A program made the position numbers and the translations under genes. A stretch of 55,836 nt of DNA from Candidatus Nitrosopumilus sp. Its GTDB lineage: Archaea; Thermoproteota; Nitrososphaeria; Nitrososphaerales; Nitrosopumilaceae. The notes below the pieces were generated by a model, which searched no databases, was not told the DNA's origin, and saw nothing but the letters and a program-made list of their open reading frames with translations. Of the stretch, positions 1 to 40,083 are shown in pieces. The DNA lies in the NCBI GenBank assembly GCA_029863275.1, contig JAOTVS010000007.1, forward strand, positions 1-55,836, read 5' to 3'. The stretch's first letter is position 1. Every line of letters starts with the position of its first letter.

Positions 1-358
1 TTTTGTATGCAGGTTCATTATTGTATCTGTCTACATAGTACTGTGGGTCTTCTGTTGGATCAACAAAAGCTGCAATAGGTTTTACCTCTTTTAGTCCAAC
101 TGCCTGATAAATTGAGTCATACTCTGAAAAGTTTTCATCAAACCACTTTTTGTATGCAGGTTCATTATTGTATCTGTCTACATAGTACTGTGGGTCTTCT
201 GTTGGATCAACAAAAGCTGCAATAGGTTTTACCTCTTTTAGTCCAACTGCCTGATAAATTGAGTCATACTCTGAGTAATTTTCATCAAACCACTCTTTGT
301 ATGCAGGTTCATTATTGTATCTGTCCACATAACTTTGTGGATCTTTTGATTCATCTAC
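1..358 (-). repeat. 147-bp in-frame tandem repeat
   Basis: The unit repeats with an exact 147-bp period (49 codons), for example TGTATGCAGGTTCATTATTG at about 5, 152 and 299. The two leftmost copies are nearly identical. The copy nearest the 5' end of the gene (about 212-358) differs, encoding DESKDPQSY instead of DPTEDPQYY. The array continues beyond the left edge. Confidence 0.9.
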
Positions 359-16815: not shown

Positions 16816-17322
16816 CTAGGTGTGTCTAGTCATAAATGCAGAAACCCAAGACTGAGCAATTTTTTTATTCATATCTGCAATTACTTGGGATTGTTTGTTC
16901 CATTCCTTGATATTTTCTTTTGCAGTATCTATAGATGAGAATACCATTTCATCTCTAATTTTTCTTGCATTAATTGCAGAATCAACTGTATCTGATAGGA
17001 ATTTACTTGCAGCTTTTAATTGTTCTGAAGTCATTTCGGTTTTACTTGCAAACTCTTTTTGAACTGACAGAATTGTATTAAACATGTTTTCGCATGCTTG
17101 GACATATTCTTGTTGTAGTTCAATTAGGGTTTGATAGTATTTTGGAATTGATTTTTCCATAGTTCCAAAATATTTCTCAATATTTTGTTTGTATATGGCA
17201 AAAAAGTCTTGGATTGGTTCTGACTTAGTTTCAGGCTTTTTTGTTTGTTCGGTTTTAATTTGATGCTTTGTGATTTGCTCAGATCTGATTTGGTGTTTTG
17301 AATTTTTGAGTGATTTACTCAT
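16816..17322 (-). CDS. Phasin-like helical protein (copy A)
   Basis: A 168-residue protein with a basic/polar N-terminal extension that repeats KHQI and SEQ/TEQ, then a helical domain of about 115 residues: FFAIYKQNIEKYFGTMEKSI, PKYYQTLIELQQEYVQACEN, and C-terminal IADMNKKIAQSWVSAFM. The pattern fits phasin-type granule-coat proteins. Polyhydroxyalkanoate synthesis is known in thaumarchaea, but no PHA synthase lies in this window. A paralogue at 39600 shares IYKQN-x-x-KYF and the NK-I-QSW-x-x-F end. Each lies divergent from a nearly identical winged-helix regulator, suggesting a regulator-phasin pair like PhaR-PhaP (inference). Confidence 0.65.
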   Translation of the reverse strand: MSKSLKNSKHQIRSEQITKHQIKTEQTKKPETKSEPIQDFFAIYKQNIEKYFGTMEKSIPKYYQTLIELQQEYVQACENMFNTILSVQKEFASKTEMTSEQLKAASKFLSDTVDSAINARKIRDEMVFSSIDTAKENIKEWNKQSQVIADMNKKIAQSWVSAFMTRHT

Positions 17323-17612
17323 GTTTTAATCTGCGCCTTTCTTGTTTATATCTAAATACTGAGATATTACTGTATCAATCTAGTAAATTTAATTTCACTA
17401 TTCCAATTCTGACTAAATTAATTTAAAAACTTGGCTAGAAATTTTTAGAAATCAACTAAAGTTGTTTTTTTTGATCGGTTAGGTTGCAAAATGGTATGTG
17501 CTTTATAGAATTTTTTAGATCAATTTACACAAAATATTTGCTACAATAATTTTTTTAAACATATTAAACAATAAATCATTGATTACATGAAATCTATTGG
17601 GAGATATGAAAA

Positions 17613-17768
17613 ATGAAAATACACTCTGAGCAGTTGTTCAATTATCTAAAATCTAGAGGATTTGAATTAACAGCAGAAGATAAGGCAAATATTGTAGAGA
17701 TTATTCTCTTTGGTAAAAACGATAAAGGAAAATATTCTCAACAACGAGAGAAAAGTTTTGGTGGATAA
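17613..17768 (+). CDS. 51-residue small protein
   Basis: A frame from the ATG at 17613 reads MKIHSEQLFNYLKSRGFELT, then AEDKANIVEIILFGKNDKGK, then YSQQREKSFGG. A GGGAG Shine-Dalgarno-like sequence lies about 10 bases upstream. The helix-turn-like LFNYLKSRGFELTAEDKANI looks like a folded mini-domain. It lies between the phasin-like gene and its regulator. The flanking gaps (17323-17612 and 17769-18091) are AT-rich; the second holds the inverted repeat AGAATGA-N7-TCATTCT at 17832-17852. Confidence 0.55.
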   Translation: MKIHSEQLFNYLKSRGFELTAEDKANIVEIILFGKNDKGKYSQQREKSFGG

Positions 17769-18091
17769 GAATTTGAATCTTCTGAATTTTAATTTACAAA
17801 ATTGGCTAAAACTTTTTTAAAAAAACTTGACAGAATGATCCAGATTCATTCTAATTTGATTACATATAATACAAATAATTTAGCTGAATGCGACAAGTCA
17901 AATCATATCTTGTTGATTTCAAGTATTCTTAAAATCATGTAACATTTTAGATATTACATTTCCTGCGTGAAACCTCAAAAATTTCTCTGTTTTTAAAAAA
18001 CTATATTTTCAAAATTGAGATCCTTTTTAAAATTATGTTCACAGAGGATTTATTCATGTTCCTTTTATTCAAAACTCTCATAAAATTAGAC

Positions 18092-18373
18092 ATGGTAACT
18101 TATCGGACCAGCATGCAAATAGTTGGAGATCTTCTTACAGTAACCAAAGAATCTGGAGAAGAAGGAATTAGAACAACAAGGTTGCTTGCAAAAGCCAATC
18201 TGTCACATTCAAGATTATCAGATTTTCTTGAGAACTTGACGGGTTCTGGGTTGGTAAATAAAATAGAGTACGATGGAAAAAATACATTTGTAATTACTCC
18301 CAAAGGCCGGCAATACCTAGAGTCTTACATGAAATTCTCAAACGTTGCAGGCGCATTTGGGTTGGAAATTTGA
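18092..18373 (+). CDS. Winged-helix regulator (copy A, next to phasin-like gene)
   Basis: A 93-residue winged-helix DNA-binding protein starting MVTYRTSMQIVGDLLTVTKE. It has a helix-turn-helix (TTRLLAKANLSHSRLSDFLE), a wing (LVNKIEYDGKNTFVITPKGR) and the end FSNVAGAFGLEI. The start was set at 18092 because the paralogue at 40114 begins at the equivalent residue (MASYRTSMQIVGDLL) and has the same length. Both copies stand divergent from a phasin-like gene. Probably a dimeric repressor of that gene, by analogy with bacterial PhaR; not demonstrated. Confidence 0.8.
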   Translation: MVTYRTSMQIVGDLLTVTKESGEEGIRTTRLLAKANLSHSRLSDFLENLTGSGLVNKIEYDGKNTFVITPKGRQYLESYMKFSNVAGAFGLEI

Positions 18374-40042: not shown

Positions 40043-40083
40043 CTATTGGTAATGAATGGTTGCTATTGGTTTCATATACCAAT
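40043..40083. promoter_or_regulatory. Operator-like repeats between phasin-like gene and regulator
   Basis: CTATTGGT occurs at 40043-40050 and 40063-40070, exactly 20 bp apart, about two helical turns. The second copy also forms the inverted repeat ATTGGT-N7-ACCAAT (40065-40083). The region is flanked by TATA-like boxes for both divergent genes (about 40036 and 40085). This is a good candidate site for the neighbouring winged-helix regulator. Confidence 0.5.

Follow-up and report, generated by a model that had tools for sequence, protein, structure and literature searches.

A putative TGGTA operator, phasin-like genes and an AbrB-type PhaR candidate in a Nitrosopumilaceae archaeon

The window studied here, a stretch of 55,836 nucleotides, is contig C43 in the draft genome (1.76 Mb in 103 contigs) of an ammonia-oxidizing Nitrosopumilaceae archaeon. 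In two places it carries a gene for a phasin-like protein divergent to a gene for a small winged-helix protein (copies A and B; Table 1). A sequence-only reading proposed that the two pairs are copies of one duplicated unit and that the winged-helix protein is the equivalent of PhaR, the bacterial repressor which senses PHA granules and controls the phasin PhaP, the archaeal circuit being built independently. The locus raises the question whether these proteins are phasins, and which protein would control their genes.

Two gene pairs of different make-up

All four open reading frames of the proposed pairs are present. The start of winged helix A was set at the ATG at 18092, where the similarity to its paralogues begins; the longest open reading frame starts at 18035. 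The winged-helix proteins are indeed strongly similar over their full length, with 73% identity from end to end, and the phasin-like proteins are 36% identical across 129 residues (E 3e-31). The two motifs said to be shared by the latter are found in both proteins, in a slightly different spelling: YKQN-x-x-KYF is preceded by I in A and by L in B, and the other reads NK-x-I-x-QSW, as NKKIAQSW and NKNIIQSW. By a simple arithmetic of our own, about 0.01 cases would be expected in which one of the three close winged-helix genes lies less than 800 bp from any of the four phasin genes in 1.76 Mb; two were found.

Table 1. Positions of the features in the window (contig C43) and of features on other contigs and stretches
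Feature	Contig or stretch	Position	Strand	Remarks
Phasin-like gene A	C43	16816-17322	-	168 aa; divergent family member with N-terminal extension
Conserved gene	C43	17613-17768	+	51 codons; between phasin A and winged helix A; 82-96% identity in same-genus genomes
Winged-helix gene A	C43	18092-18373	+	93 aa; PF14947 (HTH_45), Sso10a-like
Two genes	C43	18442-19660	+	86 and 316 aa; kept with winged helix A in same-genus genomes, even without phasin A
Three secreted proteins	C43	19761-21610		successive genes
3-aminobutyryl-CoA ammonia lyase	C43	38073-38567		NF052388, 171 bits, over cut-off
Phasin-like gene B	C43	39600-40013	-	137 aa; two long amphipathic helices predicted
TATA box, phasin B	C43	40035-40042	-
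Putative operator	C43	40043-40083		between the two TATA boxes
TATA box TTTATAAA, winged-helix gene B	C43	40085-40092	+
Winged-helix gene B	C43	40114-40395	+	93 aa; divergent from phasin B, 100-bp common intergenic region
Two helical proteins	C43	41582-42989		175 and 174 aa; 3' of copy B
Third phasin paralogue	C34	11894-12319		46% identical to phasin B
AbrB-domain gene (PhaR candidate)	C34	12316-12741
Second B-type phasin, split	C99 (L022); C65 (L021)	1-112; 1-91		over two contig ends
Second PHA synthase	L020	7844-9145		433 aa
Promoter word GCGATC/GATCGC	L019	10140-10228

The claim that the pairs are one duplicated unit did not hold. A gap of 100 bp separates the start codons in copy B, compared to 769 bp in copy A; the intergenic regions are unrelated, and none of the promoter elements of copy B was found upstream of phasin A or winged helix A. 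At seven same-genus loci, the window included, a stable set consists of the 51-codon gene, winged helix A and the 86-aa gene, and the 316-aa gene belongs to it wherever the fetched stretch reaches that far. Phasin A was found only in same-genus genomes among the family genomes compared; it is present at four of the seven loci and missing from three, the rest of the set staying in place. Among 78 phasins placed in a tree, A branches as a lineage by itself (99% SH-aLRT), apart from the B group. The winged-helix tree sets A off as a clade of its own and joins the B protein of this genome to universal copies from its genus (98/98); constrained trees with A and B as one clade were not rejected (AU p 0.25-0.34). 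The separation of the copies is therefore carried by gene order and not by the winged-helix tree. Gene order, spacing and intergenic sequence all spoke against a duplicated unit, which was rejected; the trees agree, though not significantly in the winged-helix tests. Copy A is probably outside the operator circuit described below.

Other genes around the pairs should be mentioned. The 51-codon gene always stands before winged helix A and has no family match. Downstream of the A set, three successive secreted proteins carry a near-identical C-terminal tail of 37 residues, likely a common membrane or surface anchor. Relatives of the two helical proteins 3' of copy B occur near the winged-helix A cluster of another genome (G071, L169) and near an odd phasin at locus L130.

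The phasin-like proteins and the PHA genes

The A and B proteins are very probably phasins, likely coats of PHA granules. The sequence-only reading had set absence of a PHA synthase beforehand as the finding that would speak against phasins; the genome encodes two such enzymes, one of them the class III PhaE-PhaC of contig C34, above the curated cut-off. There the third phasin paralogue adjoins phaE (PF09712) and phaC (TIGR01836, 411 bits, cut-off 365) and is convergent with both. A gene with an AbrB domain overlaps this paralogue by four bases, and next comes an alpha/beta hydrolase gene. This order, hydrolase-AbrB-phasin-PhaC-PhaE, is found at about 30 named Nitrosopumilaceae loci. To lie beside phaR and phaEC is a trait of haloarchaeal PhaP which the third paralogue has, and A and B do not.

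Phasins and PHA synthase also go together across the family. Of 151 family genomes, 125 have a match to the phasin model, and so do 18 of 22 genera. TIGR01836 PhaC was found in all eight phasin-bearing genomes checked and is missing from 18 of 20 phasin-less ones, so that presence of the two agrees in 26 of 28. In one of the exceptions (G049) the contig breaks off six bases past the end of the phaC gene, on the side where a phasin is expected; in the other (G088) PhaC is present and no phasin was found within the 8 kb examined. With 137-168 aa and an amphipathic, helical build the proteins have the size and shape of phasins. Their hydrophobic moment is 0.34-0.36 compared to 0.19-0.21 after shuffling, none of 500 shuffles being as high, and the predicted structure of phasin B is a two-helix model (helices 10-65 and 73-134, pLDDT 71). 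The paralogue beside phaEC and phaR, the co-occurrence with PhaC and the amphipathic all-helical sequences support the phasin nature proposed for these genes, whose products would bind to the granule.

Profile searches gave no family match above cut-off. The curated cut-offs of the bacterial families PF09361, TIGR01841 and TIGR01985 were not reached, phasin B scoring 14 bits against a cut-off of 30.2 for TIGR01841. Phasin_2 matched marginally in four of 29 members (best E 0.0026), and the profile of haloarchaeal PhaP gave 7.4 and 5.9 bits, with E values of 0.0009-0.003 which come from a search of only four sequences. Foldseek matched the phasin model to no PDB fold, and a sequence search of the PDB with the phasin gave weak coiled-coil matches only. 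The lack of a phasin family above cut-off would be expected if the helical proteins were coiled coils of another kind, for example chaperone-like or cytoskeletal proteins under the same operator. We regard this as very improbable in view of the paralogue in the phaR-phaEC cluster, the company of PhaC and the amphipathicity.

A second B-type phasin is split over the ends of two contigs; both ends are identical in protein to phasin B, and a recent duplication is the probable cause of the break in the assembly. The second PHA synthase has a helical N-terminus which is faintly phasin-like (3.7 bits); a relationship to phasins was rejected, the similarity being at noise level. Next to a hydrolase gene and phasin B lies a gene for a 3-aminobutyryl-CoA ammonia lyase, which could supply crotonyl-CoA. 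A PHA synthase and probable PHA granules have been reported in Nitrosopumilus (PMC11082331).

The putative operator and the protein that may bind it

The divergent B-type pair with a gap of 100-140 bp recurs at 15 distinct loci. When the 15 intergenic regions are aligned the flanks vary and a core stays constant: TATATATA on the phasin side, TTGGTAAT every 10 bp in about three to five copies, an inverted ACCAAT and TTTATAAA on the winged-helix side. The TGGTA iterons directly adjoin the phasin TATA box, on its upstream side. In copy B of the window TGG is found at 40047, 40057 and 40067, in phase at 10 bp, and the inverted ACCAAT at 40078-40083. Both TATA boxes lie about 22 bases from their start codons, and the transcripts are for this reason probably near-leaderless. 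No second conserved element was found in the copy B-type promoters besides the iterons and the two TATA boxes.

The same repeats are present, across genera, before B-type phasins without a winged-helix neighbour, the split copy included. At a spacing of 10 bp, the 14 paired B promoters contain 29 pairs of ACC and the 27 unpaired ones 47; other spacings give a mean below 1, and shuffled sequences reach 3 at most. Related repeats are found downstream of the TATA box of the phaR-phasin operon (16 pairs at 20 bp in 31 promoters), and no such iterons were found in the promoters of phaE, the hydrolase or phasin A. A TATA-anchored pattern of 26 bp, TATATATAYYATTGGTARTRNNNGGT, was searched in 151 genomes together with a control pattern. 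It gave 30 matches, all 30 immediately upstream of a phasin gene, and the control gave none. The short operator is, as judged from these matches, specific enough to predict members of the regulon from sequence. A loose pattern, TGGTNNTNNNTGGT, was discarded as non-specific (25 matches, the control giving as many). The promoters of phaE and of the alpha/beta hydrolase share another word, GCGATC/GATCGC, near the TATA box, perhaps the site of a second regulator.

Two candidates have to be considered for binding to the operator. The winged-helix proteins match Pfam HTH_45 (PF14947) at 51 bits (cut-off 25.5), and profile searches gave no match of either A or B to an AbrB domain, which haloarchaeal-type PhaR carries. 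Their assignment as Sso10a-like is based on PF14947 and on Foldseek, where the best match is Sso10a-2 (4hw0, E 5e-3); the NCBIfam model of Sso10a (NF053610) gives 48.2 and 42.1 bits, below its cut-off of 60, and a sequence search of the PDB found no relative of the winged helix. The other candidate is the AbrB-domain gene of C34, which has its AbrB domain at the C-terminus, matches TIGR01439 with 29.4 bits (cut-off 28.3) and lies with phaP and phaEC as haloarchaeal-type PhaR does. In a search of 72,556 plasmids the protein matched four records, all haloarchaeal; the top two matches are AbrB genes of phaR-phaP-phaE-phaC clusters, 51-55% over the domain. Other haloarchaeal phaC loci examined on plasmids are mostly without phaR.

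The AbrB-type PhaR is favoured because it tracks the phasins, whereas the winged helix also occurs without PHA genes. PhaR was found in 163 of 250 genomes of the class; the 15 phasin-less family genomes listed in that sample are all without it. Of the 151 family genomes 149 have a winged helix, as does every phasin-less genome tested. The operator points the same way: TGGTA-N5-TGGTA fits the bipartite TGGNA pattern of the AbrB sites mapped by ChIP in B. subtilis (PMC11135676). PhaR of C34 is, from these comparisons, the more likely protein to bind the operator. In Haloferax mediterranei, PhaR with its C-terminal AbrB-like domain is reported to repress phaRP, whose promoter has four tandem repeats; expression rises with PHA, and PhaR and PhaP are located on the granules (reviews PMC9049629, PMC7137286).

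The explanation we prefer, to which we give a probability of about 0.64, is that an AbrB-type PhaR regulates the B-type phasins and winged helix B through the putative TGGTA operator, that the phasins coat the granules made by the class III PhaE-PhaC of C34, and that copy A stands outside. Next to the TATA box of the B-type phasin, PhaR would bind the TGGTA iterons, which are spaced by one helical turn. Without PHA it would hold the phasin promoter down as in H. mediterranei; when PHA is made it would be drawn onto the granules and leave the operator free. At copy B the phasin and winged helix B would then be made together, the operator lying between their TATA boxes, and winged helix B would be a downstream member of the PHA regulon, a DNA-binding protein of the Sso10a type. 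We infer PhaR as the binding protein, the sign of the regulation and the role of the winged helix from comparison of sequences; for the direction of control Haloferax is the model, and iterons adjacent to the upstream side of a TATA box could also mean activation. Against this explanation stand the scores of the phasin family, below the cut-off of every phasin model and with no PDB fold matched, and two observations on the winged helix which are taken up next.

Could winged helix B, together with its universal paralogue, be the PHA-responsive regulator that binds the iterons and controls both phasin B and itself? Divergent pairs with a common operator, found at 15 distinct loci whose gene contexts vary, are expected if it is, and the extra inverted ACCAAT lies near the winged-helix TATA box. 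Several PHA-bearing genera (g1, g12, g15) have a single TGGTAATACC element at the TATA box of their universal winged-helix gene, and in PHA-less genera it is altered, which would fit binding of the winged helix to TGGTA. However, the operator also stands at phasin genes without a winged helix, the winged helix is universal and present even where the PHA genes are gone, and a haloarchaeal-type PhaR is at hand. The promoter of the universal gene has one TGGTAATACC element and no array of 10-bp iterons upstream, and to take the iterons as winged-helix sites from this promoter was rejected for that reason. At copy A there is neither operator nor common promoter region. The adjacent winged helix as the equivalent of PhaR is thus not supported, and we consider this explanation unlikely; the protein is more likely a co-regulated gene product than a sensor of PHA. 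The short near-palindrome at the universal TATA box (L018, L054-L082, L183-L204) is TGGTAATACC in many PHA-bearing genomes; PHA-less ones of genus g19 have GAGTAATACTC instead.

An explanation in which both proteins act overlaps in part with the one we prefer. PhaR would set the operator according to the level of PHA, and winged helix B would feed back on the same or a neighbouring site or be an architectural nucleoid protein like Sso10a. The Sso10a-like nature of winged helix B and the operator region in common are in line with this, and the Nitrosarchaeum pairs stand apart in the winged-helix tree (not significantly), so that pairing with a phasin operator may have arisen more than once; the lack of a second conserved element in these promoters speaks against it. 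We hold it as a possibility, the least doubtful of the alternatives. It is also a tentative thought that the phasin regulon has an operator code of its own, and that the winged helix was recruited to it more than once as a second PHA-responsive regulator or as a nucleoid protein tying the granules to the chromosome. That a duplicated winged-helix gene landed beside the phasins by accident, with no functional link, is improbable for the B pairs. Only some B-type phasins are paired, in a scattered pattern that forces at least six changes on the tree, but the gap, both TATA boxes and the operator are kept at the 15 loci and the flanks and downstream genes differ. At copy A, where the winged-helix cluster is stable and phasin A is present at some loci and missing from others, accidental neighbourhood is the likelier reading.

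Comparison with known systems

A PhaR-PhaP-like circuit, as an idea, is supported. The bacterial systems (Ralstonia, Paracoccus) likewise have phasin genes under a regulator tied to PHA, as we infer here; they differ in the regulator family, and the phasins described here fail the bacterial phasin models. The winged helices resemble archaeal Sso10a/HTH_45 proteins in their PF14947 and Foldseek matches and differ from them in the NCBIfam scores and in one copy being placed beside phasin operators. The operator has pairs of TGGTA 5 bp apart and a presumed regulator with an AbrB domain in common with AbrB of Bacillus subtilis. Unlike there, three to five in-phase copies lie next to an archaeal TATA box and the sites found in the pattern search are confined to phasin promoters, with a related array at phaR.

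Among the closest systems is phaRPEC of H. mediterranei, in which an AbrB-domain PhaR likewise lies next to a phasin gene beside phaE-phaC. The C-terminal AbrB domain is 51-55% identical to that of haloarchaeal PhaR, and the phaR promoter of Haloferax larsenii has CCATC at three successive 10-bp steps, a series of CCA repeats like that of the phasin operator. The differences are that the Nitrosopumilaceae phasins score only 6-7 bits to the profile of haloarchaeal PhaP, that phaR-phaP is convergent with phaEC in Nitrosopumilaceae, and that the extra, dispersed phasin genes bear the operator, some of them divergent to a winged-helix gene. No publication on phasins or their regulation in ammonia-oxidizing archaea was found in the open-access literature; a phasin family, a candidate for its regulator and a short operator would be new for these abundant marine archaea. 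The independent origin proposed for the archaeal circuit is doubtful, because its PhaR part appears to be common with haloarchaea. The comparison of sequences suggests that control of phasins by PhaR is common to haloarchaea and ammonia-oxidizing archaea rather than built independently.
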